Of a stretch of 51,695 nt of DNA, positions 16,178 to 41,174 are shown one piece after another. The translations under genes and the position numbers were made by a program. Source of the stretch: a virus. Below the pieces are notes generated by a model. The model made no database searches. It saw nothing but the letters and a program-made list of their open reading frames with translations, and had not been told where the DNA came from. Location: positions 1 to 51,695 of IMG/VR virus record IMGVR_UViG_3300009370_000043; one strand, 5' to 3'. How positions within the stretch are numbered: the stretch's first letter is position 1; every line of letters begins with the position of its first letter.

Positions 16178-16363
16178 ATGAAGATTACAATGAGTCAGCT
16201 TCGTCAAATGGTACAAGAAGTTATTAACGAAGTAGAATCAGAAAAACAACGCCGATGGGCGTGTGCTCAAGCGGGCAAATCCCGCAAGAACTTTAAAGGA
16301 AAGCCAAAACTATCTAAAGCCGAAGCTGAAGAAATGTGCAAGGCAGACGTAAAAAAGAAGTAA
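16178..16363 (+). CDS. Small MKIT-tagged basic protein
   Basis: 61 residues. The first 19 (MKITMSQLRQMVQEVINEV) are an MKIT-type leader with a candidate (I/L)-x-E site at VINE. The remainder is Lys-rich (QRRWACAQAGKSRKNFKGK, then LSKAEAEEMCK) with two Cys. There is no Shine-Dalgarno; the ATG lies in TATTATATG. It is physically separated from the main cluster of tagged genes. Function unknown; a small DNA-binding internal head protein would fit its charge, but this is speculation. Confidence 0.7.
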   Translation: MKITMSQLRQMVQEVINEVESEKQRRWACAQAGKSRKNFKGKPKLSKAEAEEMCKADVKKK

Positions 16364-16370
16364 AAACTTC

Positions 16371-16401
16371 TTGACTTCTTAAAAACAAATGGTATTATAC
16401 T
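16371..16401 (+). promoter_or_regulatory. Sigma70-like promoter
   Basis: TTGACT at 16371-16376, a 16-base spacer and TATTAT at 16393-16398 (or TATACT at 16396-16401 with 19 bases). This is a near-consensus host-type promoter directly upstream of the HAD-family gene, unlike the ACTATTTA sites elsewhere. It suggests the nucleotidase/primase unit can be transcribed by unmodified host RNA polymerase. Confidence 0.65.
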
Positions 16402-16420
16402 CATGGAGGGAGGTGCTCCT

Positions 16421-17062
16421 ATGAGTTACCAAGTCTTTAGTGATATGGATGGCGTCCTCGTCAACTTTGAGGGCGGCGTTCTAAAATATATGAACGAAAA
16501 GTTCCAAGAGATTGCGAGCAATCAGGAAGAGTACAAAGCCCTGCGTGGCTCTGGTAGTCCTGATTACAAGCTCTACAAGCTTGCCCGCTCGGCAGCCAAA
16601 GAGCTTGGCGGCTGGGACGTAGAAATCAACAGGTGGCACATCGCCCGCTCTGACCAAGAGGGAAGCCTTGGACGCAACAAGCGAATCCGAGACTTCATGT
16701 ACCGACTGGTAGAGGACAACGTTGAGTTGTGGGCTAACCTTGGTTGGGAACGTGGTGGCAAAGAACTGTGGGATTATATCAAAGACATCCCAGGGTTGGA
16801 GATTCTGTCTGCCCCGATGGCTGAAGGTTCTAAGGTCGGCAAGCGGATGTGGGTTGAACGGGAACTGGGTGTTCCGCTGGAAAAAGTCAACTTGGCTGAC
16901 AGCAAGAAGCCCTACGGAGTCTGGAACGGAAAACAAGGTCTTCTGATTGACGACCGAGACAAGTACGTCAACGAGTTCCGAGAGGGTGGCGGCATCGCTA
17001 TCAAGCACGACCCTGACAATGTTGCGGCAACGATTGAACAACTCAAAGAACTTGGACTCTGA
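16421..17062 (+). CDS. HAD-superfamily 5'(3')-deoxyribonucleotidase-like phosphatase
   Basis: 213 residues from ATG 16421. An upstream in-frame ATG at 16403 overlaps the Shine-Dalgarno (gggaggtg, 16408-16415), so I prefer 16421. Motif I is DMDGVLVNF (Asp8 nucleophile, Asp10), and motif IV is LLIDDRDKYVNEFREGG near residue 180. This arrangement is typical of HAD phosphatases that dephosphorylate nucleotides. Such enzymes adjust nucleotide pools in phages. The Shine-Dalgarno lies within a short GGAG...CTCC inverted repeat just before the start. The stop overlaps the next gene's TTG by abutment (TGATTG). Confidence 0.75.
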   Translation: MSYQVFSDMDGVLVNFEGGVLKYMNEKFQEIASNQEEYKALRGSGSPDYKLYKLARSAAKELGGWDVEINRWHIARSDQEGSLGRNKRIRDFMYRLVEDNVELWANLGWERGGKELWDYIKDIPGLEILSAPMAEGSKVGKRMWVERELGVPLEKVNLADSKKPYGVWNGKQGLLIDDRDKYVNEFREGGGIAIKHDPDNVAATIEQLKELGL

Positions 17063-18010
17063 TTGTTTAGTGATCCCAACTCAGTAAAGAAAAAGAAAAT
17101 CCTTGACGAGATCCTGGGAAGACCATCTCGTCAGGGTAAGGAGTATCTGTACGAATCCAGATGTTGCTCACATCATAAGCCAAAACTATCAGTCAACTTT
17201 GACAAAAATGTGGCTAAATGTTGGGCATGTGATTGGCGAACAAAAAACTTACGACGACTTGTACGTCGCTGGGGGGATATAAGTCACATCCATAGATGGA
17301 AGGACTTTGACGCCGATGTTGAGCTAGGCGACCTAGACAACCTATTCGCCAAGGAAGAAGATTCTCCGCAGAGAATTGACCTTCCAAATGAGTTTCAAAC
17401 ACTAACTGGTCGCTCTCATTCGACCACTGCAAGATTAGCCCTAAACTATCTCCGCAAACGTGACGTTGTAGGGAAAGACATTCTGTTTTGGAAGATAGGC
17501 TACTGTGCTTCCGGCGAATACAAAAACAGAATAATCCTCCCATCATTTGACGAAGACGGTTATTGTAACTTTTTTACATCCCGCACATATGACCCCAACA
17601 TTTGGCCTCCGTATTTGAACGGACCCGGAAACAAAGACATTATATTTAACGAACTGTTGATTGATTGGGAACGAGAGGTCACTCTGGTTGAGGGCGTCTT
17701 TGATGCTATCGTTGCTGGTGAGAACAGCATCCCGCTCCTCGGCTCAACCCTACGAGAAGACAGCAGACTTTTCAGGAAGATCGTAAAAAACGACACACCA
17801 GTTCTGCTGGGGTTAGACAACGACGCACACAAAAAAGCCATGAAACTTGTGAAGGCTTTGCTGGCTTATGATATAGAAGTTCGATTGATGGACACGTCAG
17901 GCTATAAAGATATTGGAGAAATGCCACCAGATGTATTCCAAGAGCGGAAAGACAAAGCGCCGTTTATTGATTCTGATGCCTATTTATTCAAGATTGCTTT
18001 GATGGCATGA
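17063..18010 (+). CDS. DnaG-like DNA primase (CHC2 zinc finger + Toprim)
   Basis: 315 residues. The N-terminal zinc site is C35-x2-H38 ... C53-x2-C56. The catalytic Toprim domain has VEGVFDAIVAGE (Glu210) and GLDNDAHKK (Asp252, Asp254). This is the domain order of bacterial-type and T4 gp61-type primases, which make RNA primers for lagging-strand synthesis. It is shorter than DnaG (about 580 aa), as phage primases are. The start is TTG at 17063, immediately after the previous stop, with only a weak Shine-Dalgarno, which suggests translational coupling. No helicase gene is adjacent in this window. Confidence 0.85.
   Translation: MFSDPNSVKKKKILDEILGRPSRQGKEYLYESRCCSHHKPKLSVNFDKNVAKCWACDWRTKNLRRLVRRWGDISHIHRWKDFDADVELGDLDNLFAKEEDSPQRIDLPNEFQTLTGRSHSTTARLALNYLRKRDVVGKDILFWKIGYCASGEYKNRIILPSFDEDGYCNFFTSRTYDPNIWPPYLNGPGNKDIIFNELLIDWEREVTLVEGVFDAIVAGENSIPLLGSTLREDSRLFRKIVKNDTPVLLGLDNDAHKKAMKLVKALLAYDIEVRLMDTSGYKDIGEMPPDVFQERKDKAPFIDSDAYLFKIALMA
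17980..17986 (+). promoter_or_regulatory. CTATTTA motif inside primase 3' end
   Basis: CTATTTA (preceded by C rather than A) lies 34 bases before ATG 18020, within the last codons of the primase gene. It is at the same distance from a gene start as the intergenic copies and could start transcription of the tagged-gene cluster. Confidence 0.35.
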
Positions 18011-18019
18011 GGAGCATTA

Positions 18020-18631
18020 ATGAAACTATTAATGGAACAGTGGCGGAAATACCTGAATGAAGACAAAAGTCTAGTAGGAAAAATAGTAAAACTTCCTCGT
18101 GGATTATTTGCCGCCAACAAAGGCAAAGTCCTATCATTTGATGGCGAGTCTTATAAGGTAGAAGTAACCGATAAGAGAGATAGAACAAGCGTTATTACAG
18201 TTGGACGAGCAGCCATCAAAGAAGATAAAATGTCTGACATAAATGCAGACCAAGCCTACAGTACCAAAGTCAAAGGCATCAACGTCATTATCAATCTTAA
18301 AGATACTGACCTTGAGGGAACCCGACACAGCAAGGAACGCCAGTTCCGCCACGACGAAAAGATTTCCAACCAAGCCATCATCCAAGCAATTGAGATGGCC
18401 ATCGGCAAAATCATTCAAGACTTTGCGAACGGCGAACTTGCGAACGATGAGCCTTTCCATATTCGTATGGTGGGCAGAGGTAAAGTTCCAGCCCTCAACG
18501 TCATAGCCGTTTTGGATATGCGAAAAGGTCCGGACACCATAAAAGTAATTACAGTAATGAGGAAAGATGATTTCCGTACAGATAATTTTGGAGGCGGTGA
18601 GCAAAAAACTTACACCGTACAATCACGATGA
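18020..18631 (+). CDS. W-tagged protein with KOW-like and possible toxin-fold region
   Basis: 203 residues. The leader MKLLMEQWRKYLNED has a candidate prohead protease site YLNE|D. Residues about 18-50 (LVGKIVKLPRGLFAANKGKV) resemble a KOW/SH3-like barrel. Residues about 95-203 contain RHSKERQFRHDEKISNQAI followed by beta strands ending VITVMRKDDF. This layout loosely recalls small RNase-fold (RelE/BrnT/BECR) domains found as phage-delivered or toxin domains; I cannot confirm it. Shine-Dalgarno gagga precedes the ATG, and the stop overlaps the next ATG (ATGA). Confidence 0.75.
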   Translation: MKLLMEQWRKYLNEDKSLVGKIVKLPRGLFAANKGKVLSFDGESYKVEVTDKRDRTSVITVGRAAIKEDKMSDINADQAYSTKVKGINVIINLKDTDLEGTRHSKERQFRHDEKISNQAIIQAIEMAIGKIIQDFANGELANDEPFHIRMVGRGKVPALNVIAVLDMRKGPDTIKVITVMRKDDFRTDNFGGGEQKTYTVQSR

Positions 18632-19494
18632 AAAAATTAATGACAGAATGGCGAAATTTTTTGAAAGAGGCAGAGTATGATAAAAGTAAAAGAAAAGTTT
18701 TATTAGACTTAATTGATGCTCCTTATGAAGAGTTTGTTGGCAAATTGGCAAACAGCATCAAAGATCCCAAATTTCAAGAATTCTTAAATATGGGCATTGA
18801 AGATCAAGCAGCACAAGATGATGTGGTGGCAGTAGAAGAGGCGGATATACCCGTGAAAGACCTTCAGCCAACTCAAAGCCAGATTGGACTAGCGGATTCT
18901 CTTGGTTACCTTTCAACTCAAGCGCCTCAAGGCGGCTCCGCCATCGCCAAAGGATCAGTAAAGCCAGCCAATGTAGGTGGGCGAATTATTACGGCAAACG
19001 GAAAATATATAGTAGATGGTCACCACAGATGGTCCCAGGTATATTTGATCAATCCTGATGCCACCATCCCAGTCTATAACTTTCAAGTTGGCGGAAAATT
19101 AGATAGCCCTAAAGGCGTTTTGAAGCTAGCTCATTTGGCCATCGCTGCGGTAGATAAAGCAGTTCCCCTTGTTCCAGCCGATGCCGCTACGGATATATTT
19201 CAAACAAATGGGGACCGAGAGGCAATTGTAAAAATATTAAGTAACCCCAAGGTAGTCTCAGAAGAGCTTGCGGCAGTTCTGGCTCCCCATTATCAGGTAA
19301 AGACCCGAGAGGAGGTTATTAACAAAATTGCTGATAACGCCGAGTCTTTATTTGCTGCTACTCAGGTGGCGGCCGCTGCTGGACCTGAACGTGGGCTCAT
19401 GCCACAGACCGCAGCTAAAGGAAAATCAAAAGAGACAGCAAAAATGGCGGCGATGAAAGCTGGCGAAGTAAACTGGAACCCAAAAGACAAGTAA
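18628..19494 (+). CDS. W-tagged ParB/sulfiredoxin-fold protein
   Basis: 288 residues. The leader MKKLMTEWRNFLKEAE has a FLKE|A site. The core (residues about 74-150) reads IPVKDLQPTQSQI, then GKYIVDGHHRWSQVYLI, with the DGHHRW motif at 130-135 as in ParB-like nuclease/CTPase and sulfiredoxin folds. The tagged protein at 29223 has the same TQxQ and VLDGHHRW blocks, so the two are paralogues. ParB-fold phage proteins can be nucleases or nucleotide-binding enzymes; the activity here is unknown. It overlaps the upstream gene by 4 bases (ATGA) and forms part of the W-tag cluster. Confidence 0.8.
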   Translation: MKKLMTEWRNFLKEAEYDKSKRKVLLDLIDAPYEEFVGKLANSIKDPKFQEFLNMGIEDQAAQDDVVAVEEADIPVKDLQPTQSQIGLADSLGYLSTQAPQGGSAIAKGSVKPANVGGRIITANGKYIVDGHHRWSQVYLINPDATIPVYNFQVGGKLDSPKGVLKLAHLAIAAVDKAVPLVPADAATDIFQTNGDREAIVKILSNPKVVSEELAAVLAPHYQVKTREEVINKIADNAESLFAATQVAAAAGPERGLMPQTAAKGKSKETAKMAAMKAGEVNWNPKDK

Positions 19495-19495
19495 T

Positions 19496-20317
19496 ATGAA
19501 GTTGATTATGGAACAGTGGCGAGGCTTTCTCCAAGAGGGAAGGTACGAAGCAGCCACAACAGAATTGACCCGCAAGGTGATACCTCACGTCAAATATATT
19601 ATTGACGAGGTTATTCCCAGTGAGAATGTTCAGAACTCACGCAAGGATTTAATTCTTGTTGTTGGTAAAACATTTTCAGCAGGCAAAACCCTCCCAAAAG
19701 AACTTGAAGATAAAATGTACAAAGCAGAGTTTACTTTCCATATTGATAAAAAACTAGCGGAAGAAACAGGCGACAAGTTTCAAATAGGCGGAATGCACAT
19801 GAGTGACCCCTCTGACCGCCGAGACGACTACATAAAAATCAACAGCTACTTAGATATCGGATTTAACGAGCAAGACCTCAACGCTTACCTCGGCGAACTC
19901 AAAGCAATCACTATCCACGAAATTCAGCACGGCGGCCAAACCACTGATGTATTGGGCACCGCTCACCCACCCAAAGGACCTCTCAATCCACTTAATTGGG
20001 ACTACAATAAAATAGATGGCATTCGTGGATATTATGCTTCGGACTCTGAAACGGACACCTACACCAAAGAGGTCTACAAAAGAGCAAAGTATTACAAGGT
20101 GCCCTACACAGAAGCGTTGGACATGCGTATCAAGCAATTCTTTGATATGTTCCGCCGCCGCCGAGACAAGATAAACGCCGAAGACGAGAAAGAAACTCCC
20201 GGCGAATATAGAGTAAAATACACAGAAGAAGAACTGAAAGACTTCTTTTACAATGAACTGCGTGATAAATATATTGCGTTCGCTAAAACAAAATACCCAG
20301 AGGCTGTAGGGATATGA
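19496..20317 (+). CDS. W-tagged HExxH metalloprotease-like protein
   Basis: 273 residues. The leader MKLIMEQWRGFLQEG has a FLQE|G site. A zinc-binding HExxH lies at 141-145 (ITIHEIQHGGQ). A later YYASDSETDTYTKE places Glu185 as a plausible third ligand, the layout seen in several gluzincin-type phage proteins. The C-terminal third is highly charged. If the leader directs it into the head, it would be a packaged protease acting on host or internal virion proteins after entry (inference). Shine-Dalgarno is weak; the start follows the previous stop by one base. Confidence 0.78.
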   Translation: MKLIMEQWRGFLQEGRYEAATTELTRKVIPHVKYIIDEVIPSENVQNSRKDLILVVGKTFSAGKTLPKELEDKMYKAEFTFHIDKKLAEETGDKFQIGGMHMSDPSDRRDDYIKINSYLDIGFNEQDLNAYLGELKAITIHEIQHGGQTTDVLGTAHPPKGPLNPLNWDYNKIDGIRGYYASDSETDTYTKEVYKRAKYYKVPYTEALDMRIKQFFDMFRRRRDKINAEDEKETPGEYRVKYTEEELKDFFYNELRDKYIAFAKTKYPEAVGI

Positions 20318-20907
20318 AAAAACTCCTAACAGAGTGGCGGAAGTTTTTGAAAGAAAATACAGGTGGAACATTCTACCACCTCTCGCCCGCCAAATTTGAT
20401 AGGTTCCAGCAGCAGATGGCCGCCGACCCAGCCATATCTTCGGATGTTGGTTTTCACTTTGGGACAAAAGAGACGGCTCTGACCGTCGCTGATAAATTAC
20501 AAAAAGACGGAAAAATAAACTCCGGTGACTCCGTTTACCTCTACACAGTTAATTTAGACAGCGGCAAGACGATGGAGTTACCAGAAAACAGGTCAGGAAC
20601 TTGGTCAGTCAATTCAATATTACAGGCTATGTTTGAAGGCTTTGGCGGCGAACCCCACCCAGCAATTCCAGACGAGATGGTGAATGATTATTATGATGAT
20701 GTGGTGACTTCTCCGTCTGGGGAAAATATTAAAGATTTATCATTTCAGCCCGTAGAAGAGATGGAAGAGTTTATAGAATGGTTTTCCTCCTTGGGATTTG
20801 ATTCCATAAAATATGAAAACACCTTTGAGGGTGGTGGCGATTCCTATATCGTGTTTAAATCTGATCAAATAGATATTGTTGATACAAAAGAGTATCAGGT
20901 GCCGTAA
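20314..20907 (+). CDS. W-tagged ADP-ribosyltransferase-like (polyvalent-type) protein
   Basis: 197 residues. The leader MKKLLTEWRKFLKEN has a FLKE|N site. The body follows the pattern of ART-fold domains found in phage polyvalent proteins: FYHLSPAKFDRF (His22), GFHFGTKETAL at 46-55, and a C-terminal GFDSIKYENTF...GGDSYIVFKSDQIDIV. T4 packages and injects the ADP-ribosyltransferase Alt, which modifies host RNA polymerase, so a tagged ART fits the same logic. The triad is not certain from sequence alone. It overlaps its neighbours (ATGA upstream, TAAATG downstream). Confidence 0.72.
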   Translation: MKKLLTEWRKFLKENTGGTFYHLSPAKFDRFQQQMAADPAISSDVGFHFGTKETALTVADKLQKDGKINSGDSVYLYTVNLDSGKTMELPENRSGTWSVNSILQAMFEGFGGEPHPAIPDEMVNDYYDDVVTSPSGENIKDLSFQPVEEMEEFIEWFSSLGFDSIKYENTFEGGGDSYIVFKSDQIDIVDTKEYQVP

Positions 20908-21150
20908 ATGAAAAAACTACTAACAGAGTGGCGGAAGTATTTAAACGAAATGAAATTAGATATCAAAGTTGGAGATGTTCTTTTGGGCGGAAGATTCAAG
21001 AACAAAAGAATAATCGTAAAAGAAATCGGAACTGACGAACTCGGACAACCAACCATCAACGGCAAGCCATTACTTAATTTTAGAATTGAGAAACATTTGC
21101 CGGATAGTAAAAAGAGCAAGAAAACGCTGGACGACGAGAAAAAGAAATAA
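20908..21150 (+). CDS. Small W-tagged protein
   Basis: 80 residues. The leader MKKLLTEWRKYLNEM is nearly identical at DNA level to that of the preceding gene and has a YLNE|M site. The body (IKVGDVLLGGRFKNKRIIVKE, read as two short beta blocks, then GQPTINGKPLLNFRI) looks like a small SH3-like barrel with a Lys-rich tail. No known function. It is the last gene of this tagged run before the membrane protein/protease pair. Confidence 0.75.
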   Translation: MKKLLTEWRKYLNEMKLDIKVGDVLLGGRFKNKRIIVKEIGTDELGQPTINGKPLLNFRIEKHLPDSKKSKKTLDDEKKK

Positions 21151-21162
21151 CCCCTTTCGCAA

Positions 21163-21170
21163 ACTATTTA
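21163..21170 (+). promoter_or_regulatory. ACTATTTA motif next to a start codon
   Basis: ACTATTTA ends 4 bases before ATG 21175 in the 24-base gap after the W-tag cluster. If it is a -10 element, transcription would begin at or near the start codon (leaderless). The 9 bases ending in ATG read TACTTTATG. Confidence 0.45.
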
Positions 21171-21174
21171 CTTT

Positions 21175-21645
21175 ATGAGTAGGGAAAGGGATTTCTACAG
21201 AAAAATGGAACAAGACGCTCGTAATTCTATGTACGAGCCTGAGATTATTGATGTCTCCCCACCCGCCAAGAAAGTAAAAACCAACTACCTTTCAGCAGTC
21301 GTTTGGACTTCGGTTGTCGCAACTGTGGTCTGTACGATTTTCATGGGTCTCCTTTTATATGTTGTAAATGAGAGCCGAATTGAGGAGCGACTCGAAACGG
21401 CTGCGAGCCACGCTCTTTACAATTTGGAAAGCGTCATCAAACGGCAGAATATAGAGATACAGCAATTGAAGGCAGAAAATAAAAAGATATACAATCACAT
21501 AAAATTCTGGGCTCCCATAGAACACAGGCTACCACCAGGCGTGATAGAAAAATGGGACATCAAAGGATATGGTGTTCCCAAATATGAACTCCACTCCCAG
21601 AATGTGTGTGAAGAGGATATGTTATGCTTACCTTTCTTGGAATAA
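21175..21645 (+). CDS. Single-pass membrane protein with coiled coil, partner of adjacent S2P-like protease
   Basis: 156 residues. The N-terminal 40 residues are charged (cytoplasmic), residues about 41-64 are a hydrophobic segment (AVVWTSVVATVVCTIFMGLL) and residues 65-110 form a probable coiled coil (ESRIEERLETAASH, VIKRQNIEIQQLKAE). The likely orientation is N-in, C-out. The gene overlaps the following RseP-like protease by 22 bases. A bitopic protein coupled to a site-2 protease could be its substrate or adaptor, as RseA is to RseP (inference). There is no Shine-Dalgarno; an internal ATG at 21205 is an alternative start. Confidence 0.7.
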   Translation: MSRERDFYRKMEQDARNSMYEPEIIDVSPPAKKVKTNYLSAVVWTSVVATVVCTIFMGLLLYVVNESRIEERLETAASHALYNLESVIKRQNIEIQQLKAENKKIYNHIKFWAPIEHRLPPGVIEKWDIKGYGVPKYELHSQNVCEEDMLCLPFLE

Positions 21646-22427
21646 TCGTTTTAGTAATTTTTGTCCATGAACTTGGACACTATGTCGCTGCCCGTGCTGT
21701 TGGCGTCGCCGTTGATAGTTTTTCAATAGGCTTCGGCAAAGTCCTCCTCAAGAAGAAAATATGGGGAACTGAATGGCGACTTTCTTTATTACCGCTGGGC
21801 GGATATATCAAACCACGAGGCGAACAAGATTATCATAATGTTGAGAACGACCCCGAGTCCTTTTGGGCGGTGTCGGCATGGAAGCGAGCCTTTATAGCGG
21901 TGATGGGTCCGGTATTTAATTTGTTGTTGCCGTGGCCATTATATTTTATGCTGCTTGTTGGGCAGCCATATCCTGATGTTTATATACCAGAAGGGGCGAC
22001 TCCCCACCGCATAGGTGTGATGGAAGCGGCTGGTTATTCACATCAGGTTTCCCTAAAAATGTATAAGAGTATATGGGAGGCAGTAACGGTGCCTCGACAA
22101 GAGCCTATGTCTGTCAAAGAAATTGGTGGACCTGTTGCAGTTTACGAGTTCACAGAGCAAGCCAGAAAGCGGAGCGCAGAAACAGGAGACTGGGGATTTC
22201 TAATCGACTGGATAGCCTTTTTCTCCATCAATCTCGGCGTCATTAATCTACTACCAATTCCAGTATTAGATGGTGGACATATCGGTATCTCTGTGGTGGA
22301 AGGTATAAGACGTAAAAAATTGGCAGTAAAGACACGAAACGTACTAAATATTATTGGTGCGGTTCTAGTGCTCGGAATTTTTGTTTTGGCAATAACTTCT
22401 GATGTGCTACGACTTACTGGAATCTAG
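21624..22427 (+). CDS. M50 site-2 protease (RseP-like) lacking PDZ insertion
   Basis: 267 residues. The catalytic zinc motif HELGH is at 15-19 in the first membrane segment, and the second motif, NLLPIPVLDGGH, is at about 217-228. Other RseP-like blocks are present: FSIGFG, WRLSLLPLGGYIKPRGE, SAWKRAFIAVMGPVFN and IGGPVAVYE. At 267 residues it lacks the two PDZ domains that regulate E. coli RseP (450 aa). Such enzymes cut transmembrane segments within the inner membrane. A phage copy is unusual and its substrate is unknown, although the overlapping bitopic protein is the obvious candidate. Shine-Dalgarno gaggat precedes the ATG. Confidence 0.88.
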   Translation: MLTFLGIIVLVIFVHELGHYVAARAVGVAVDSFSIGFGKVLLKKKIWGTEWRLSLLPLGGYIKPRGEQDYHNVENDPESFWAVSAWKRAFIAVMGPVFNLLLPWPLYFMLLVGQPYPDVYIPEGATPHRIGVMEAAGYSHQVSLKMYKSIWEAVTVPRQEPMSVKEIGGPVAVYEFTEQARKRSAETGDWGFLIDWIAFFSINLGVINLLPIPVLDGGHIGISVVEGIRRKKLAVKTRNVLNIIGAVLVLGIFVLAITSDVLRLTGI

Positions 22428-22429
22428 GA

Positions 22430-22437: not shown

Positions 22438-22460
22438 TAACAACCCTCGGGGGGAACAAA

Positions 22461-23038: not shown

Positions 23039-24226
23039 ATGAATCTCAAAGATCACTTAATAGAACTTATTAACGAAGTCACTCAAGGTGAGATGGAGTT
23101 TGCTGAATTAGAAGCAGCCCGTCAAAACTACAAAGAAAATTTTAGAGACGACGAGGCACGCCACCAGTTTGGAATGATGGTAGAAAAACTCGTAGAACCT
23201 ATTATGAGTGAGATGGGACTTTTTTTGGAGGCTGAAGCATTTTATAATCGTGGCGAGATTGTGTTTACCAACTATAAGAACATAGATGTAACGATTGACC
23301 CGCTTGGGATGATGGGAAGATATGATGTTCAGGTGACACCACTCGCTGGCTCGGAAGGCGAAATCAACCCAATGGAGATAAGCCTTGATAGCATGAAAGG
23401 CGTCGCCCAATTTATCAAAGATGAATACCGGGATCAACTATCCCGAGGCGGAACATATGAACAACCACCAAGAGGAATGGTCGGCGAACCAGAAGGACAA
23501 ATGGAATTGCCCTTACCCAGGGAGAGTAAAATGAGAATTACAAAATCACAACTACAACAAATTATTCGGGAAGAAACCAAAAACCTCAAAGAAGCCGCTT
23601 CTCGGGAACAGATTGAAAACTATCTCAGAGACATAGCCGACGGCATGGCTGCCGACGGGCTGAACCCCATGGCAATCAAAATGGGTCTCAACGATGAGTT
23701 CATGGATAACTTTGCCGGAATGGGCGTTCCCTATGGTGCGTTTGAGGAATTTATAGAAGAACTAGCAATGGACGCCGGAGGTGGCATTCGTGTGGAGAAC
23801 AAAACGAAAATCACGAAGACTCAACTACAGCAAATCATCAAAGAAGAGATGGAAGCTGAACTTAGCGAAGATAAGTACGCCACCGAGGATGACCGCCCTC
23901 TGGGAACAGGTCGCTCTTTGATGAGTGCCGAAGACGCAAAAAAAGCATCCAGAATGGCTGACAGGTTATATAGCATTCTCGGACCAGACAGTAGCGTTGA
24001 CTCAGCAGCCAGAATTTTGGTTCGGCGACTCTCTTACCTCCTGAAGAGGGGTATCGCTGGTGGGCGTCCCGAACCCGAAGGACTGGGAGGACCCTCTTCT
24101 GCGGCAGAAATGGAAGATTACGAAAGCGATTATCGTGACCCGCCAAGCAAGCCACTCAAAACGGGCAAAGGTCGCCGAGGACCAAGCAAGGCTCAACTTG
24201 ATATGATGAAGGACTACGACATATGA
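23039..24226 (+). CDS. Composite protein with two internal MKIT-type tags (fused tagged genes)
   Basis: 395 residues that look like three tagged proteins joined in frame. Part 1 starts MNLKDHLIELINEV (a LINE|V leader). At residue 165 (ATG 23531) a full leader appears, MRITKSQLQQIIREETKNLK, with NLKE|A and its own Shine-Dalgarno (agggagag). At residue 256 another leader begins, TKITKTQLQQIIKEE, where the expected ATG is ACG (23804-23806). Cleavage at each (I/L)-x-E site could release separate peptides, and the ATG at 23531 could also be an internal start. Function of the segments is unknown; the first is acidic. Confidence 0.75.
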   Translation: MNLKDHLIELINEVTQGEMEFAELEAARQNYKENFRDDEARHQFGMMVEKLVEPIMSEMGLFLEAEAFYNRGEIVFTNYKNIDVTIDPLGMMGRYDVQVTPLAGSEGEINPMEISLDSMKGVAQFIKDEYRDQLSRGGTYEQPPRGMVGEPEGQMELPLPRESKMRITKSQLQQIIREETKNLKEAASREQIENYLRDIADGMAADGLNPMAIKMGLNDEFMDNFAGMGVPYGAFEEFIEELAMDAGGGIRVENKTKITKTQLQQIIKEEMEAELSEDKYATEDDRPLGTGRSLMSAEDAKKASRMADRLYSILGPDSSVDSAARILVRRLSYLLKRGIAGGRPEPEGLGGPSSAAEMEDYESDYRDPPSKPLKTGKGRRGPSKAQLDMMKDYDI

Positions 24227-24552
24227 AAATCACAAAATCACAACTACGAAAGATTATCAAAGAGGAACTCAAAGAAGCCGGACTCCCACACAGTATGCGG
24301 TCAGGAAGATCTATGGGCGACTTAGACAGGGAAGCAAAAATGAGAGAAACAGATTTCCTCGCTAAGAAGTCAACAGAACTTGACCTCGCCAGAGACGCCG
24401 CCCGACCTGCTGACCCGATTGGACCAGATGATGCCTATGCAATTGCCGAGGTACTTACGGACTTGGGCTTTACTCTTACACGAGGCGGAATGAACAAGTT
24501 TGCTGATTTCCTTATTGACCTAGAAGCCTCCGAAGATTTACGGAGAACATAA
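24223..24552 (+). CDS. MKIT-tagged small protein
   Basis: 109 residues. The leader MKITKSQLRKIIKEELKEAG contains IIKE|E and ELKE|A. The body is acidic and helical (DLDREAKMRETDFLAKKS, DDAYAIAEVLTDLGFTL). It overlaps the upstream gene by 4 bases (ATGA) and the next gene by 1 base (TAATG). The first 45 or so bases are nearly identical to those of the next two genes. No known function. Confidence 0.75.
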   Translation: MKITKSQLRKIIKEELKEAGLPHSMRSGRSMGDLDREAKMRETDFLAKKSTELDLARDAARPADPIGPDDAYAIAEVLTDLGFTLTRGGMNKFADFLIDLEASEDLRRT

Positions 24553-24815
24553 TGAAAATCACCAAGTCTCAACTACGAAAGATCATTAAAGAAGAACTCC
24601 AAGCGGAAGCAGCCGAAGACCCTCGTGCCCCATCGCCCAAGTCTTATGAATATCCCGATGCTGGCAGCAGCTTCCGAAGAGCGGTAATGAACATGGTCCT
24701 TCAAAATGTTGACCTATCGGTGCCCCCCGGAAAAAGAGAACAACTCATCAACGACATTCAGTTGGCGTTTGATGCCGCCGGCATCGGCGGACCTATTAGC
24801 AGGATGGAACAATAA
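24552..24815 (+). CDS. MKIT-tagged small protein
   Basis: 87 residues. The leader MKITKSQLRKIIKEEL is identical at protein level to that of the preceding gene, although the DNA differs at synonymous sites. The body (RAVMNMVLQNVDLSVPPG, EQLINDIQLAFDAAGIGG) is a probable small helical domain. It starts on the last base of the preceding stop (TAATG), and the same overlap joins it to the next gene. Function unknown. Confidence 0.72.
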   Translation: MKITKSQLRKIIKEELQAEAAEDPRAPSPKSYEYPDAGSSFRRAVMNMVLQNVDLSVPPGKREQLINDIQLAFDAAGIGGPISRMEQ

Positions 24816-25105
24816 TGAAAATCACAAAGACCCAACTACGAAAGATTATCAAAGAAGCCATCGGCGAAGAGAACGCTTTGATGAAGACTATTAATCGCTG
24901 GTCCGAAGAAGGAAAAGATGTTCCTGTCGGAAAAACGGTAGGAAGAGCAGAGCGCAGCGACCAACTAGACGCAATTCTACAACACATGAGCACGGACCTC
25001 GGAAAAGCCATGGATGTTGTTTCTTACTTGGTAATGAACACTGACCAAGCCGTCCTTGATAAGTGGTTTGAAGGACGAGGCTTGCTCGGAGACCCAGGAG
25101 CATAA
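24815..25105 (+). CDS. MKIT-tagged small protein
   Basis: 96 residues. The leader MKITKTQLRKIIKEAIGEE contains IIKE|A and AIGE|E. The body (TVGRAERSDQLDAILQHM, DVVSYLVMNTDQAVLDKW) is helical. It has a TAATG overlap with the gene before and lies one base from the gene after. Function unknown; a short packaged effector is possible if the leader targets the capsid. Confidence 0.72.
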   Translation: MKITKTQLRKIIKEAIGEENALMKTINRWSEEGKDVPVGKTVGRAERSDQLDAILQHMSTDLGKAMDVVSYLVMNTDQAVLDKWFEGRGLLGDPGA

Positions 25106-25106: not shown

Positions 25107-25364
25107 ATGAAAATAACAAAACAACAACTACAAAAAGTTATTAGAGAAGAAGTCACAAAGGCTCTGCGTGAAGACGCCAGCGACGACACCTTTGAAATGG
25201 TGGATGTAATCGTCCAGGCACTAGGACCACAACAAGCCCTTGAAGAACTAGTCCAAGCTATGGAACGCTCCAACGCCCAAGACCTTCTTGGTTATGTTAT
25301 GCAAATGCACGACATGCGTATGCCGGGCGACGAAGTTGAAGACTACAAGCCCAGCGATTTTTAG
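25107..25364 (+). CDS. MKIT-tagged small protein
   Basis: 85 residues from ATG 25107, preceded by Shine-Dalgarno caggag (25095-25100). Extending upstream would lose the leader alignment. The leader is MKITKQQLQKVIREEVTKAL with an ALRE|D site. The body is acidic and helical (DTFEMVDVIVQALGPQQAL, AMERSNAQDLLGYVMQM). No recognised domain. Confidence 0.72.
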   Translation: MKITKQQLQKVIREEVTKALREDASDDTFEMVDVIVQALGPQQALEELVQAMERSNAQDLLGYVMQMHDMRMPGDEVEDYKPSDF

Positions 25365-25373: not shown

Positions 25374-25583
25374 ATGAAAATCACAAAATCTTTACTTCAA
25401 CAGATTATCAAAGAAGAACTCCTCAAAGAGCGAGTTTCTTCTGGGGTTGAAGAGATTGACGAGAAGATACAAGAAGTAGAGGATTTCATCAGAGAAAGAA
25501 TAGATTCTCTAGACATGATTGATTTTGCCGCACTACTTGGCGCTTTGAAGGTAAGAATAAAAAATAAGCTCGGACAAGAATAG
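25374..25583 (+). CDS. MKIT-tagged small coiled protein
   Basis: 69 residues. The leader MKITKSLLQQIIKEELLKER contains IIKE|E and LLKE|R. The remainder (GVEEIDEKIQEVEDFIRER) is a strongly charged heptad-like helix. It is the last gene of the MKIT run. A 64-base gap holding a promoter-like sequence separates it from the SbcDC fusion gene. Confidence 0.7.
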   Translation: MKITKSLLQQIIKEELLKERVSSGVEEIDEKIQEVEDFIRERIDSLDMIDFAALLGALKVRIKNKLGQE

Positions 25584-29222: not shown

Positions 29223-29888
29223 ATGAAAAACATGAAGCTTATTATGGAGTCATGGAGAACCTATGTTACAGAACAAGGTATGCTCGACGACCCAGGTTTA
29301 GCACCTTCCGGTGGAAAAGTCACAGGAAATCCCCAAATAGACCAAAAAATGTTTGATTATTTTAAGGAGTTTTTGCCTGGTGGTTCTCGCCACGGAGAAG
29401 ATCCTGAACTTTGCGAACTGGATATTGAGGGCACGAAACTTATGTGTCAAGATAACAAGGGTCTTGCAAGAAGCGTAATGCCTCAACTTAAAACAGCAGA
29501 CGATCAAGATTTGGCAGAAGCGTTTGCCGACTATCTTGAGAGCCAAGGACACTCAGTATCAGAGACAACAGAACTTGCTTCGAACCTGAAAGCCACACAA
29601 AACCAATTAAAAGGAGCAAAGGTCAACGGCATGAACTCAGCCCTTGTGTCCACCGATGGAAAACATGATAAAATTCGAGCCCCAATTATTGTTAGCAGTG
29701 ATAACTATGTTCTCGACGGACACCACCGTTGGGCGTCTCAGGTAGTTTACGACTTTATGAATGGCACGCCAGGCGTTGAAGTTGCCGTCAGAAAGGTAAG
29801 TCTTCCCATCGATGAACTGCTGGAGCTATCTAAGTATGATGGAGAGTTTTGCCAGACTAATGGGTGTGTTCCCCCCCAAGGGAGATAA
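29223..29888 (+). CDS. W-tagged ParB/sulfiredoxin-fold protein (paralogue of 18628)
   Basis: 221 residues. The leader is MKNMKLIMESWRTYVTEQ; its site YVTE|Q departs from (I/L)-x-E, the weakest match of the W-tag group. The core carries KATQNQLKGAKVNGM, then NYVLDGHHRWASQVVYDFMN (DGHHRW at 165-170), paralleling the tagged protein at 18628. It has four further Cys (64, 75 and two near the C-terminus). Activity unknown: ParB-fold proteins include nucleases and nucleotide-hydrolysing enzymes. It heads a unit behind an ACTATTTA motif with a clear Shine-Dalgarno. Confidence 0.78.
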   Translation: MKNMKLIMESWRTYVTEQGMLDDPGLAPSGGKVTGNPQIDQKMFDYFKEFLPGGSRHGEDPELCELDIEGTKLMCQDNKGLARSVMPQLKTADDQDLAEAFADYLESQGHSVSETTELASNLKATQNQLKGAKVNGMNSALVSTDGKHDKIRAPIIVSSDNYVLDGHHRWASQVVYDFMNGTPGVEVAVRKVSLPIDELLELSKYDGEFCQTNGCVPPQGR

Positions 29889-29959: not shown

Positions 29960-30412
29960 ATGAAAATTAAAAAGTCTAATTTAGAAAAACTAGTTCGAGA
30001 AGCCATTTACGCAGAGGTGGGTCGAAAGGTCCTCGCTGAAGGTCGTGTTGATGAATTTCTTGGCGGACTTTTCGGCGGCGGCGACATCGACCTTGGAGAA
30101 AAGAGTGCCGCAGCGCAGGAGCTAATGTATTACAAACCAGAAAGCGGCGGCGTTGGAAAAAAGATCCAAGATGCGATTGATGCGGGGTTGGATGATTACG
30201 TGACAATTCAACAAGTTTGGAACAAATTGGGCGAAGCCGTAGTCAATGGTCATTTTTTGGACGGCAAGGACCCAATGGTCAAAAAGATTAAGAAAAGCTG
30301 GGCTAATAAACAAGAGGAGCCCCGCCGATCCATGTATGAGATGATCTTCGAAAAAGGCTCGTCACTCGACGTACAGAAAGCCATTGAAGCGCAAATTGGA
30401 AGGGCAAAATAA
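29960..30412 (+). CDS. EVGR-tagged protein (paralogue of 22562)
   Basis: 150 residues from ATG 29960; longer upstream extensions would pass the promoter-like motif and Shine-Dalgarno. The leader MKIKKSNLEKLVREAIYAEV continues GRKVLAEGRVDEFLGGLFGGG and contains a perfect VLAE|G site. The same layout is seen in the protein at 22562. The rest (KIQDAIDAGLDDYVTIQQV, MYEMIFEKGSSLDVQKAI) is helical and unrecognised. Confidence 0.78.
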   Translation: MKIKKSNLEKLVREAIYAEVGRKVLAEGRVDEFLGGLFGGGDIDLGEKSAAAQELMYYKPESGGVGKKIQDAIDAGLDDYVTIQQVWNKLGEAVVNGHFLDGKDPMVKKIKKSWANKQEEPRRSMYEMIFEKGSSLDVQKAIEAQIGRAK

Positions 30413-30413: not shown

Positions 30414-30737
30414 ATGAAAATAACAAAAACATACCTGAGAAAAGTTATTAAAGAAGAACTAAGCAATCTTAAAGAAGCGGAAGACCCTAAAGAATTGGTG
30501 GGACTTATGGTGAGTAAGTTGGCCCCTCTAAAGGGAAAAATTGAAGCTGCCTCAAAAACAGTAGACCTCAAACTAGCCCTCGTAAAGGCTTTGTTATCTC
30601 ACCCAGAAACATTTGCAATGGACGAAGGCGAACTAGACAAAGCATTTGCAATGCTCAAGAGATCTGTCCAAAAAGGACAAGAAACTGCCAAACAGCAAGC
30701 AAAAGCCCCCGCCCCCGCAACAGGCCGGCCTGAATAA
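30414..30737 (+). CDS. MKIT-tagged small protein
   Basis: 107 residues from ATG 30414, one base after the previous stop. The leader MKITKTYLRKVIKEELSNL is followed by NLKE|AED. The body is helical (ELVGLMVSKLAPLKGKIEAA, ELDKAFAMLKRSVQKG) and ends in an Ala/Pro-rich tail. Function unknown. It shows that tagged genes also occur outside the main 18-25.6 kb cluster. Confidence 0.72.
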   Translation: MKITKTYLRKVIKEELSNLKEAEDPKELVGLMVSKLAPLKGKIEAASKTVDLKLALVKALLSHPETFAMDEGELDKAFAMLKRSVQKGQETAKQQAKAPAPATGRPE

Positions 30738-31289: not shown

Positions 31290-32426
31290 ATGGTAGATAT
31301 TCCTACACTTGACATCGAGGATTACGATCCCGACCTAAACGAAGAAGAGGAGGCTGTTGAGGACAAGGCCGGCGGCGCTCTTACTTATGCTATTGTAGGC
31401 GCTGGCCAAGGCGGCGGACGTATGGCTAAAGCGTTTTATGATATGGGTTATACCAAGACGGTTGCTGTAAATACAGCCCGTTCTGATTTAAATGGGCTTG
31501 ATATACCTGACAATCAAAAATTCCTTGTTGACGAACACGGCGAGCAAGGTGCCGGCAAAGACCAAAAAAAGGCTCAAGCCGCAATCGAACGAAAGGAGCA
31601 AGAAGTATTCAATTTGTTCCGTGAAGTTTTCGGTAGCAACGTTGACCGTATCTTGATTTGCTTAGGTGTCTCCGGCGGCTCTGGCGGTGGAACAGTTAAC
31701 ACTCTTATTAAGGTTGCCAAGAAGTATTTCACTTATATTGGCGTAGAGGATGTTGATAAGCGTGTTGGTGTTGTGGCATCTCTGCCCACAGCAGGTGAGT
31801 CCGCATCCCCCACCGTTGCCAAGAATGCTCATGCTCGGATCACTGATCTTTGCGTGCAAGCAGAAAAAGGAAAGATTGCCCCTCTTATTATGGTGGATAA
31901 CGAAAAGATTAAAAAGCTTTACCCCAAACTTACAGTGAAGAAGTTTTGGAAGACCATCAACAACACAGTTGCAGGTTTGTTCCATGTATTTAACGTCCTT
32001 GCCAATAAGGATTCAGAGTACACCACGTTTGATGCCACGGATTATGATAGCGTTATGCGCCAGTCTGGGTGTATGATTATGGGCGTGACAACTGTTAAAG
32101 ATGTTGAGAATGAAACCGCTGTCTCAACTGCGCTTAAAAAGAATCTTGAGAAAACACTTCTCGCCGAAGGTTTTGACCTGACTACGGCAACGGGCGCTGC
32201 TTGTATTGTGGTGGGTGGAGAAGTCATTTTTGAGGAGACTGCTGGACTGATGGACAACATTGAGTTCGGGTTTGACACTTTGGCTGCTCTAACAGGTGGA
32301 GCCATTATTCATCGTGGCATCTATGAAGATGATAAGCGTGATAAGCTGGTTGCCTATACTTTGGTTAGCGGTCTCCTGCGTCCTGCCAAACGTATCGAGG
32401 GGCTCAAAAAGTTCCTGAAGAAATAA
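31290..32426 (+). CDS. Tubulin/FtsZ-superfamily GTPase
   Basis: 378 residues, Shine-Dalgarno aaggag. An acidic N-terminal extension (1-30) precedes a Rossmann start, YAIVGAGQGGGRMAKAFYD (G37-G43 region). The tubulin signature loop appears as LGVSGGSGGGTVNTL (126-134), a variant of GGGTGSG. The C-terminal half (CIVVGGEVIFEETAGLMDNI, TGGAIIHRGIYEDD) matches the FtsZ activation domain pattern. Tubulin-like phage proteins (PhuZ, TubZ) form filaments that position DNA. One in a T4-type genome is unusual. Arg is largely CGT, as in the capsid gene, suggesting high expression. Confidence 0.8.
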   Translation: MVDIPTLDIEDYDPDLNEEEEAVEDKAGGALTYAIVGAGQGGGRMAKAFYDMGYTKTVAVNTARSDLNGLDIPDNQKFLVDEHGEQGAGKDQKKAQAAIERKEQEVFNLFREVFGSNVDRILICLGVSGGSGGGTVNTLIKVAKKYFTYIGVEDVDKRVGVVASLPTAGESASPTVAKNAHARITDLCVQAEKGKIAPLIMVDNEKIKKLYPKLTVKKFWKTINNTVAGLFHVFNVLANKDSEYTTFDATDYDSVMRQSGCMIMGVTTVKDVENETAVSTALKKNLEKTLLAEGFDLTTATGAACIVVGGEVIFEETAGLMDNIEFGFDTLAALTGGAIIHRGIYEDDKRDKLVAYTLVSGLLRPAKRIEGLKKFLKK

Positions 32427-35389: not shown

Positions 35390-35391
35390 AA

Positions 35392-38627: not shown

Positions 38628-38635
38628 GAAAAGCA

Positions 38636-39008: not shown

Positions 39009-39018
39009 GGAGAAAACA

Positions 39019-39612
39019 ATGACTAAGAAATATGTCTTACAAGAGTTTATGAATCTGGATTATAGCGATGAACTTCTTACGGAAGAAGAGCGTGAAGGCA
39101 ACAAGAGTGGTATCCACCTCGTTTTGGCAGGCAAAATTCAAGCCGCTGGTAAAAAGAACGGAAATGGACGTATTTACCCCCGACCCATTTTGGAACGGGA
39201 AATGAAAAACTATGAAAAGCTTGTCAAAGAAGGTCGAGCCATCGGCGAACTCGACCACCCTGACAGTTCCGTAGTAGAATTAAAAAATGCTAGCCACCTT
39301 GTCACAGAAGTGTGGTGGAAGGGCGACGATGTGATGGGAAAAATGAAAATTCTTAACACGCCCGCCGGTAAAATAGCCAAAGATCTCGTAAAGGGCGGCG
39401 TCCAGCTTGGTATTTCCAGTCGTGGACTGGGGTCTACCCGCCAAGAGGGCAGCACCACTATGGTTGAGGACGATTTTCAGCTTCTTTGCTTTGACTTGGT
39501 TTCGGAACCAAGCACTAGCGGGGCTTATTTGGTTGCCGAAGGCAAAGTGAACACCCACCTCACCAAGGCAGACCGTATCAACCGTGCCCTGAACGACGTT
39601 TTAGGGGATTAA
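39019..39612 (+). CDS. gp21: Prohead protease (T4 gp21-like, S77)
   Basis: 197 residues. Family blocks: GKKNGNGRIYPRPILEREM, AIGELDHPDS with His80, and GVQLGISSRGLGS with the candidate Ser133/134, followed by FDLVSEPSTSGAYL. In T4 the enzyme sits in the prohead core and trims the capsid, scaffold and internal proteins after (I/L)-x-E. The same consensus ends the N-terminal tags described in this window and the capsid propeptide (LLKE, residues 55-58). Slightly shorter than T4 gp21 (212 aa). Shine-Dalgarno aaggag. Confidence 0.92.
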   Translation: MTKKYVLQEFMNLDYSDELLTEEEREGNKSGIHLVLAGKIQAAGKKNGNGRIYPRPILEREMKNYEKLVKEGRAIGELDHPDSSVVELKNASHLVTEVWWKGDDVMGKMKILNTPAGKIAKDLVKGGVQLGISSRGLGSTRQEGSTTMVEDDFQLLCFDLVSEPSTSGAYLVAEGKVNTHLTKADRINRALNDVLGD

Positions 39613-39614
39613 TA

Positions 39615-40736
39615 ATGTCAGCCGGTTTTGGTGCCAGTGGTAGTGGCGGGCAAGGATTTGCCATTAAACTTGAGGCTGACGGTGATACAAAGCTAGGAAA
39701 TAGCGATGGTGACTTGCATCAAGTTACGGGCACCCTCCACTTAAACGACAATGTATTTTTCTTGGCGAACGGAAGGCTCGGCATCGGCACTGACTCCCCC
39801 GACTATACTTTGGATGTAGCTGGAAATATAGGGGTTGACGAAAGGATTTACCACAACGGAGATGCCGACACCTACATGATATTCACTGATAACAGGGTTC
39901 AATTTGAAGTAGGCAATCTCAAGATGCTTGGGATGCATAAGAAAGCGTCGGCCCCTCATCAAGTAACTGTCAATAGTAATAACAACAACGTTGACTTTGT
40001 TGTTAACAGCAACAATAGTAGTACATCTCCAATACTGAGGGCTGACGCATCTACCGCCAGAGTGGGAATCGGAACATCTTCCCCAGACGGACTCCTGCAT
40101 CTCGACAACGGAACTTCCAACACAGAGTTGATTATTGAAAAAGATGCTGGAACATCTGGGAGTATTGTGTTTCATAATGCGGGCACCCGAGAAGCAGAAA
40201 TAGCTTATTCTACTGGCGAGGAAATTGAGGTACGCCATCATGTTGCGGATAAAGACATTACACTTAATGTTGTTTCCGGAAGTTCAGGTATGACGCTAGC
40301 CACAGCAGATGCGAGCACTAACGCATTTGTGGTAAATGGACAATTTGCACGAGGCACAGCAACAGCCAACCTTGGGTCAGGGACAACCTCTACGCTTGAG
40401 CCATTTGATGCCGAGGCTGGGGTCATTCTTTTAACGGTGTCCAGTGTCACGGTAAATCCAGCCGTAGGAGGGCATGTTTGTACCATCGCCGACGGCAAGG
40501 TCGCAGGACAGATATTAACAGTTGTTTTGGTCACAACTGCTCTTGATGGGTCTGGGGGAGAGACTGATATGGGAGTAATTATCTTTCAGCCCGCCAACCA
40601 GTTAAACTCATCGGAAACATCCACAGTCATGGGTGCGGCCCTCGGAGGGGAACCGCTGGGGGCTTCTTTTCAGTATATTTGGACAGGCAGCGCCTGGTGC
40701 CGTCTATCCACCAACCGAGCCGGCGGGAACGTATAA
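39615..40736 (+). CDS. Fibre-like head protein with 'RxGIGTxSPDxxLxxDN' repeats
   Basis: 373 residues, Gly/Ser/Thr/Asn-rich. Two copies of a fibre-type motif occur: GRLGIGTDSPDYTLDVAGNI near 55 and ARVGIGTSSPDGLLHLDNG near 150. These are beta-helix repeats typical of phage tail fibres and tailspike stems. The C-terminal 110 residues (VILLTVSSVTVNPAVGG through FQYIWTGSAWCRLS) resemble a compact beta domain. Its location between protease and scaffold suggests a head-attached fibre or decoration protein rather than a tail fibre (inference). Confidence 0.75.
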   Translation: MSAGFGASGSGGQGFAIKLEADGDTKLGNSDGDLHQVTGTLHLNDNVFFLANGRLGIGTDSPDYTLDVAGNIGVDERIYHNGDADTYMIFTDNRVQFEVGNLKMLGMHKKASAPHQVTVNSNNNNVDFVVNSNNSSTSPILRADASTARVGIGTSSPDGLLHLDNGTSNTELIIEKDAGTSGSIVFHNAGTREAEIAYSTGEEIEVRHHVADKDITLNVVSGSSGMTLATADASTNAFVVNGQFARGTATANLGSGTTSTLEPFDAEAGVILLTVSSVTVNPAVGGHVCTIADGKVAGQILTVVLVTTALDGSGGETDMGVIIFQPANQLNSSETSTVMGAALGGEPLGASFQYIWTGSAWCRLSTNRAGGNV

Positions 40737-40747
40737 CACGGGAGTGT

Positions 40748-40755
40748 ACTATATA
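40748..40755 (+). promoter_or_regulatory. ACTATATA motif (variant of putative late promoter element)
   Basis: ACTATATA 32 bases before ATG 40788. It differs from ACTATTTA at one position and matches the copy at 41960. Confidence 0.45.
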
Positions 40756-40787
40756 CTAAGTGCGTGGAAAACGCAAGAAAGAAATCT

Positions 40788-41174
40788 ATGAAAAAATCGG
40801 AACTTAAAAATATTATTAAAGAATGCGTCAAAGAAGTGATCTTTGAGGAAGGCGTCCTCTCGGGCATCATCTCGGAAGTAGCCCAGGGATTACAGGGTGC
40901 ATCCTTGGTCCAAGAATCCACACCACCGCCCAAGCCACAACGGCAAAATGTGTCGGAAGCCAAAAAGCAAGTTTTGTCAGCCATTGGGAACAATGGATAT
41001 GACCATGTAAAACAGAAGTTTTCTAACCCTGAGCTTTTTGAAGGAACGACCCCGATACCTGGCGATAGCAAGGGTCCTTTAGCGGGAGTTGCCGGAGGTG
41101 ACCCTGGAGTAGATATTAGTAACCTGCCTGGAATGGGCAAATGGGGAGCAGTTGCTTCCGGAATAAGAAAGTGA
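40788..41174 (+). CDS. Tagged protein in head module
   Basis: 128 residues from ATG 40788 (a GTG at 40764 would add eight residues). The leader MKKSELKNIIKECVKEVI is a variant of the MKIT tag with IIKE|C and VIFE|E sites. The body is Pro/Gly-rich with low-complexity segments and ends KWGAVASGIRK. Lying between protease and scaffold genes, it is a good candidate for an internal prohead protein, which supports the packaging interpretation of the tag. Stop overlaps the next gene's possible GTG. Confidence 0.7.
   Translation: MKKSELKNIIKECVKEVIFEEGVLSGIISEVAQGLQGASLVQESTPPPKPQRQNVSEAKKQVLSAIGNNGYDHVKQKFSNPELFEGTTPIPGDSKGPLAGVAGGDPGVDISNLPGMGKWGAVASGIRK

Follow-up and report, generated by a model that had tools for sequence, protein, structure and literature searches.

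The IMG/VR virus record IMGVR_UViG_3300009370_000043 was analysed over its whole length of 51,695 nucleotides (this 51.7-kb viral record, labelled G000, is called the window below). It carries a T4-like head module and 17 genes whose products begin with short leaders of a few recurring kinds. The consensus of the W-type leaders is MKLLxENWRKYLxE| and that of the MKIT-type leaders is MKITKSQLKQIIKEEL...LxE|, where the bar marks the predicted cut. This uncultured bacterial virus gives the same short removable labels to over a dozen proteins with otherwise no relation to one another, most likely so that these enter the head with the DNA and reach the next host cell, as happens with only a few proteins in T4. 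The genes concerned are listed below, and the assignments come from the sequence where no other basis is named.

16178..16363, + strand: MKIT-type leader MKITMSQLRQMVQEVINE, with VES after the bar; 61 amino acids (aa)
18020..18631, + strand: W-type leader MKLLMEQWRKYLNE, cut before DKS; 203 aa, no function assigned
18628..19494, + strand: W-type leader MKKLMTEWRNFLKE, cut before AEY; ParB/sulfiredoxin-superfamily-like by profiles and structure model
19496..20317, + strand: W-type leader MKLIMEQWRGFLQE, cut before GRY; HE(I/L)(Q/T)HGGQ conserved in the family alignment
20314..20907, + strand: W-type leader MKKLLTEWRKFLKE, cut before NTG; ADP-ribosyltransferase-like by profiles
20908..21150, + strand: W-type leader MKKLLTEWRKYLNE, cut before MKL; 80 aa
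22562..23026, + strand: EVGR-type leader ending AINE|GRI
23039..24226, + strand: probable fusion; begins with the leader LINE|VTQ and has MKIT-type leaders inside, at residues 166 (NLKE|A) and 257 (ELSE|D)
24223..24552, + strand: MKIT-type leader MKITKSQLRKIIKEELKE, cut before AGL
24552..24815, + strand: MKIT-type leader with no second (I/L)xE
24815..25105, + strand: MKIT-type leader MKITKTQLRKIIKEAIGE, cut before ENA
25107..25364, + strand: MKIT-type leader MKITKQQLQKVIREEVTKALRE, cut before DAS
25374..25583, + strand: MKIT-type leader MKITKSLLQQIIKEELLKE, cut before RVS
29223..29888, + strand: W-type leader MKNMKLIMESWRTYVTE, cut before QGM; ParB-like by profile (phrog_2859, E 2.5e-23)
29960..30412, + strand: EVGR-type leader ending VLAE|GRV
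30414..30737, + strand: MKIT-type leader MKITKTYLRKVIKEELSNLKE, cut before AED
40788..41174, + strand: MKIT-like leader MKKSELKNIIKECVKEVIFE, cut before EGV; inside the head module

All 17 N-termini were found where the initial annotation had placed them. The starts 25107, 29960, 30414, 40788 and 22562 lie inside longer mechanically called open reading frames (ORFs), and the start codon of 22562 is GTG. The proposed leader end, (I/L)xE, is strict in 15 of the 17 proteins, but 29223 has VTE, and the only site of 24552 is the IIKE|E within the common core. The tagged proteins are unrelated in general, as had been suggested, except that 18628 and 29223 each have a ParB-like body (BLAST E 2e-5); DGHHRW is invariant in the family alignment of such bodies. 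The EVGR type, which had been set apart as a class of its own, is better described as an extended MKIT-like leader. The gene 23039, which still has two internal leaders, is probably a fusion of tagged proteins: in contig G042 (L004) its opening and closing parts stand as tagged ORFs of their own, and no separate ORF was found there for the middle part.

Among the 55 called genes of the window, 44 pairs of N-termini (residues 2-18) exceed a BLOSUM62 threshold, against none when residues 36-52 of these genes are paired, and at this threshold the similar N-termini link 14 genes into one component. In an alignment of 130 W-tagged proteins, W8 alone is invariant, M1, K2 and E14 are conserved at 90% or more, and the mean column identity is 5%; in 130 MKIT-tagged proteins, M1 is invariant and K2, L8, I12 and E14 reach 90%. 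No column is conserved in 130 untagged controls from the same loci. The conserved leader residues were partly demanded by the search patterns, and what these alignments add is only the lack of likeness in the bodies. A leader common to otherwise dissimilar proteins, the mark of a capsid-targeting sequence (CTS), is found in the window and in both alignments. Chance origin of the shared leaders is rejected by the N-terminal pairs, by the shuffles described below and by a control of 118 random viral loci, which held no strict tag in 1,730 genes. Signal peptides were also rejected, the leaders being charged and, by eye, not secretory in make-up. In structure models of two proteins, leader residues 1-13 and, in 18628, 1-16 have a predicted local distance difference test score (pLDDT) below 50, which would be expected of a detachable segment and equally of any poorly covered N-terminus.

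Within several families the leader is exchanged or absent, with the boundary at or near the predicted cut. On ParB-like bodies the leader is of the W type in the window and L203, and MKIT-like in L302, L278, L249 and L247. In the 19496 family, different leaders are joined at the same place (FLQE|GRYE in the window, VLKE|AKFE in L178 and TLTE|AKFE in L233). YLQE|GGNIF of L149 aligns with the untagged M|GGNVF of Flavobacterium phage immuto, and FLNE|GIDPRIQKQ of L230 with MKE|GLDPRIQKQ. The 20908 homolog L053 lacks the W leader, and its residue 2 aligns to window residue 15, near the leader end. The 18020 homolog L228 has MKKLMTEWRKYIKE, and the body of 16178 resembles the C-terminal parts of the MKIT-tagged proteins L043, L105 and L109. 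For 133 tagged bodies with an ostensibly untagged homolog starting near its own N-terminus, the offset has a peak at -14 (21 cases), whose printed examples carry a variant leader missed by the pattern, and a smaller cluster at -4 to +5 (28 cases). The search with 20314 returned, in 21 related loci, one full match, one match over residues 1-118 at 28% and 19 matches covering only residues 1 to 14-61; one search peptide was the leader itself, so leader-only matches were possible by design.

The head module of the window is T4-like, with a terminase at 33809, a portal at 35392 (phrog_213) and the three genes listed next.

39019..39612, + strand: gp21-type prohead protease (phrog_207, E 9.9e-52)
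42004..43008, + strand: gp22-like scaffold candidate, from its position and conserved (I/L)xE sites
43026..44801, + strand: major capsid protein, gp23-type (phrog_138, 1.4e-71)

The scaffold candidate gave no PHROG or family match, and eight of its (I/L)xE sites are kept in 70-100% of 27 aligned sequences. The capsid protein has four N-terminal LxE sites, the last being LLKE|Q, kept in 97-100% of 30 aligned sequences. Both the protease and this capsid site had been pointed out in the initial annotation and were confirmed; at the latter, [IL]xE is present in 30/30 aligned gp23 sequences, the window included.

The first W scan had required the cut site, and the site tests used samples selected without it. 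W-tags in the loci of the MKIT scan have E at W+6 in 30/38 cases. A further W sample was chosen on residues 1-9 (MKLLxENWR) alone, from new loci only, and comprised 63 non-redundant bodies. The motif [ILVM]xE stands at residues 12-14 in 45 of them, at 13-15 in nine more and, ending at residues 16-19, in four more, which gives 58/63 within residues 10-19 against a shuffle mean of 20.4 and a maximum of 32. No enrichment was found for [ILVM]xD (6/63, shuffle 6.2) or for [ILVM]xE at residues 30-39 (7/63, shuffle 9.5), and [ILVM]xxE was mildly raised (28/63, z 2.9). In 235 MKIT leaders, [IL]xE at residues 17-30 reached 59.6% versus 23.8% in shuffles (z 14.5); [IL]xD, [IL]xQ and Ex[IL] were not raised, [IL]xxE had z 1.7, and at residues 61-74 the motif was not enriched (13.2% versus 14.7% shuffled). 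In the 40788 family, [IL]xE occupies residues 18-20 in 95% of 40 aligned sequences. Cut sites of the phiKZ type were ruled out, [AGST]xE being depleted in MKIT leaders.

The leaders had been taken for protease-removed, capsid-targeting-like segments. The signature part of this proposal held against the shuffles and the [IL]xD and [IL]xQ comparisons, the motif shifts with one-residue insertions, leaders are exchanged at the predicted cut in several families, and enzyme families occur among the W-tagged bodies; as for removal, several tests point to leaders that would be cut by the gp21-type protease of the phage. According to an excerpt of PMC9026906, the first 10 residues of T4 internal protein III (IPIII) suffice, residues 8 and 10 govern processing, and aspartate at residue 10 inhibits it.

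Scans of IMG/VR found at least 119 stretches with the MKIT pattern and at least 119 with the W pattern. After de-duplication, at least 233 loci remained, with at least 307 MKIT-tagged and at least 218 W-tagged proteins (below 50% identity over residues 26-60). In 50 whole contigs among the matches listed, the MKIT pattern was present in 36, the W pattern in 38 and both in 24, with up to 14 (MKIT) and 9 (W) matches per contig and none for the reversed patterns. A near-identical relative of 171.9 kb, G053, overlaps the window from about 21.3 kb on. Components of similar N-termini, which may include some members that are not tags, comprise 18 genes in G053, 22 in G042, 27 in G060 and 11 and 9 in G084. 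In phages immuto, Mel-JY01, RM378, HTVC008M, S-PM2 and KVP40 and in one T4 segment no component exceeded four; the detector is imperfect and linked only two genes in a T4 segment holding three internal proteins. Strict tags were absent from the same six phages and from two T4 segments; for Prochlorococcus phage P-SSM2 and the 484-kb record LR756508 the search covered gp21 alone. The one match of a tblastn search with 20-aa leaders, aimed at cultured phages, was weak (E 5) and lay in an uncultured record; the W type gave no match. Identical leader DNA is common to G066/G071, G067/G042 and G087/G053. Bacterial origin was rejected, the W pattern having only two matches among 84,980 prokaryote species represented by one genome each: L569, in a metagenome-assembled genome, is phage-like and holds several tagged ORFs, and L570 is an internal match within a longer ORF. 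The contig of L569, PBSV01000031.1, is filed under an Opitutia metagenome-assembled genome and looks like a mis-binned phage contig.

The expected co-occurrence of tags and gp21 was examined among the same listed matches. There were 65 tag-bearing contigs of at least about 60 kb; of the 50 largest, 30 encode the protease, among them 16/16 of those of at least 150 kb. Random contigs of at least 35 kb had gp21 in 2/41 and the MKIT pattern in 0/41 (the W pattern was not run on these), and those of at least 150 kb had gp21 in 2/3, without the MKIT pattern. The check is consistent but weak; it is not decisive, because long random contigs often have gp21 and the tagged contigs are not independent.

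As for the cargo, 39 Pfam families are represented among the 130 W-tagged proteins at E<=0.01. GNAT (four proteins), DUF2608 (four) and protein kinase (three) lead among the 25 families listed, which also include NUDIX, NT5C, ART-PolyVal, zeta toxin, transglutaminase, polyA polymerase and nucleotidyltransferase. The 130 untagged controls match 90 families, and the 25 listed include head protease, primase, portal and terminase, as well as NUDIX and other enzymes. By its families, the predicted W cargo is not random phage gene content, though enzymes are not confined to the W class. The median length is 200 aa for W-tagged, 114 aa for MKIT-tagged and 115 aa for untagged proteins. By analogy with T4, it seems reasonable to regard the W class as injected effectors; MKIT bodies may also be injected cargo, or could instead be parts of the prohead core. 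In the window, 18628 matches Pfam ParBc_2 (E 0.0084, below the cut-off) and phrog_2859 (5e-7); its top Foldseek matches are ParB-N and sulfiredoxin (E 0.11), and the VIA rows are ParB/sulfiredoxin-like with a modest best Z of 5.3. The protein 20314 matches ART-PolyVal (E 2.8e-4, below the curated cut-off) and phrog_11632 (9e-9). The product of 19496 is a possible metallopeptidase, an idea that stands on its HExxH-like motif only, because Foldseek and VIA-align gave no clear fold match.

The leaders are very likely capsid-targeting propeptides, which would bind the core, be cleaved by gp21 after (I/L)xE, and bring their cargo into the head and then into the next host. Leaders shared by dissimilar bodies, the (I/L)xE end signature, exchange in several families, the gp21 gene and a capsid site of the same type are all observed here. 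Core binding, cleavage, packaging, injection (by analogy with T4) and cargo function are predicted from them. During head building, W-type and MKIT-type helices would bind the scaffold core and draw the cargo into the prohead; the gp21-type protease would then cut after (I/L)xE and free the cargo inside the head, from which it would be ejected with the DNA into the next host. Some W-class cargo may be enzymes able to modify host molecules. The MKIT class, in which almost no domain was recognised, may include proteins that inhibit host defence, internal proteins associated with the DNA, or components of the core. The simplest account appears to be a T4-type capsid-targeting system with new leaders, enlarged to about 14-27 tagged proteins per phage. 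A broader version is possible, and we hold it tentatively: a widespread metagenomic T4-like lineage may possess an open cargo platform with two interchangeable leaders, in which almost any gene gaining a W (14-residue) or MKIT (about 20-residue) leader would become cargo, 15-25 proteins (ADP-ribosyltransferases, acetyltransferases, kinases and nucleases) would be injected, and each leader may be directed to a part of the prohead core of its own.

Several observations weigh against the capsid-targeting interpretation. The 130 MKIT-tagged proteins match only 14 Pfam families, one protein each and mostly weakly, and the enzyme assignments in the window are below the Pfam cut-offs. Part of the MKIT [IL]xE signal is general, because untagged genes show a small excess at residues 17-30 too (20.9% versus 14.7%). 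The true MKIT cut is ambiguous, because the core itself contains the common IIKE|E, and 24552 has no other site. The W core is present and E14 absent in the 18020 homologs L222, L181, L156 and L004; in L222 the next [ILVM]xE is VNE at residue 19. Compared by eye with the T4 CTS, the leaders have a similar layout (aromatics, then hydrophobic-x-E) and another length and sequence. Offsets to untagged homologs scatter widely on both sides in many families, so the leader boundary is sharp in several families and not in all. No protease was found in 20 of the 50 tag-bearing contigs, and 17 of these match neither portal nor capsid. The contigs G054 and G070 stop about 2 kb beyond the portal match, where a gp21 gene with the spacing seen in the window would be lost; G069 has no gp21 in its 85 kb despite scaffold and capsid at its end. 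Finally, among 27 gp21-selected loci of at least 14 kb, only 8 show a strict tag no farther than about 10 kb from gp21.

It is rather unlikely, though deserving of weight, that only the W class serves cargo targeting and that the MKIT proteins are prohead-core or scaffold parts, like T4 gp67 and gp68, which would be destroyed by gp21 and not injected. The MKIT-tagged proteins are indeed the shorter ones and nearly without Pfam domains, the MKIT-like gene 40788 lies in the head module, and MKIT starts adjoin gp21 in G057 and G060. On the other hand, the ParB-like bodies take either leader in different phages, W bodies gave 36 alignments with MKIT-tagged proteins (many partial, not independent), and up to 14 divergent copies per contig would not be expected of gp67- or gp68-like parts.

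Amphipathic helices are common docking elements, and the leaders might dock proteins to another phage structure (a tail, compartment or replication complex), with (I/L)xE incidental. This we consider improbable. Amphipathicity exceeds that of shuffles in two W-type leader peptides (P 0.033 and 0.011) and not in an MKIT one (P 0.26); a protease site accounts better than docking alone for a hydrophobic-x-E motif that moves with one-residue insertions, for the drop in conservation behind it and for [ILVM]xD not being enriched. Still more remote is the idea that the similar 5' ends were copied from gene to gene as elements acting at the DNA level (recombination or translation-initiation sequences). 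The same-codon fraction in leaders exceeds that expected from body codon usage (0.53 versus 0.41 for MKIT, 0.56 versus 0.38 for W), which suggests some recent copying or codon preference; yet for a given shared residue the codon still differs in nearly half of the cases, the conservation is an amino-acid pattern, and the two classes differ in sequence while sharing the same kind of end motif.

The capsid-targeting interpretation has a close precedent in T4, whose IPI-III and Alt also combine short N-terminal leaders on unrelated proteins, an (I/L)xE end and a gp21-type protease. T4 IPII and IPIII begin MKTYQEFIAE|A (sequence record). The present leaders, in two classes of about 14 and 20 residues, share with MKTYQEFIAE only the general layout. 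An ADP-ribosyltransferase(-like) protein is among the tagged proteins in both cases. Unlike T4, with three internal proteins and Alt, the genomes studied here have about 14-27 tagged proteins each, with predicted packaging, as well as a probable fusion with internal leaders, in an uncultured lineage. This kind of system is already known, because T4 Ip1-3 share the leader only and at least ten internal proteins are reported in related phages, according to an excerpt of PMC12373910. Polyvalent proteins, as presented in part of the paper by Iyer et al. 2017 (PMC5512222), likewise have ART-PolyVal-like and ParB-like domains and are predicted to be injected with DNA; they hold several domains per polypeptide, whereas each protein here has at most one recognised domain and its own leader. 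A Pfam scan of ten window proteins gave no convincing second domain (all matches were below curated cut-offs, and further domains are possible). In phiKZ and SPN3US, an excerpt of PMC5694885 describes prohead-protease-cut propeptides on several inner-head proteins, comparable to the cutting predicted here; theirs are mostly long and are cut at SxE (phiKZ) or AxE (SPN3US).

As far as the searches go, the novelty lies in the leader classes, in how many tagged proteins a genome has, in how broad the predicted cargo is and in a probable fusion that contains internal leaders. In one literature collection, no paper joined the capsid targeting sequence with metagenomes and none printed the leader peptides. 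The leaders offer a sequence handle by which hundreds of unnamed genes of uncultured phages become predicted head cargo, and what phages bring into the cell before any gene expression, beyond the few internal proteins of T4, becomes testable. New short leaders are also available for comparison with those of T4. Should the tentative open platform prove real, its T4-type repertoire would be larger than any known to us.

Some neighbouring genes and sequences were also recorded. Ahead of the tagged blocks, T4-type late promoters were not found; TATAAATA occurs once on the + strand, at 3138. An untagged HAD-like gene lies at 16403-17062, and its likely relatives, with a DMDGVLV motif, carry W leaders, as seen via a similar L228 protein without direct alignment. 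An M50 site-2 protease (2.9e-57) is encoded at 21624-22427, between two tagged-gene blocks, and a Tubulin/FtsZ-family protein with a TubZ-like C-terminal domain, here in a T4-like phage, at 31290-32426 (Pfam 1.8e-9 and 1.6e-7).

Three proteins of phage immuto (L495 from 1803; L500, record 117587-118588 and 118588-118887) share a leader resembling MENFDLKKFLVENKLTxNSKLLKE|, which may represent a third class with an (I/L)xE end. Virion proteomics of immuto was looked for and not found, and an excerpt of the host-strain paper (PMC7077304) does not name this phage. Three paralogs of Microcystis phage Mel-JY01 (L506, record about 60276-62718) begin with an MIKLKSLLQE-like segment followed by SDRVWH and look ADP-ribosyltransferase-like by eye only. 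Many short genes of the relatives (L466-L484, L551-L559) share the N-terminus M(K)xGDLV, without (I/L)xE, and such genes make up most of a second component of eight in G060. A GroEL-like ORF, recognised by eye from its N-terminus, is also present in relatives (L469, 71844-73430 in G053 coordinates).

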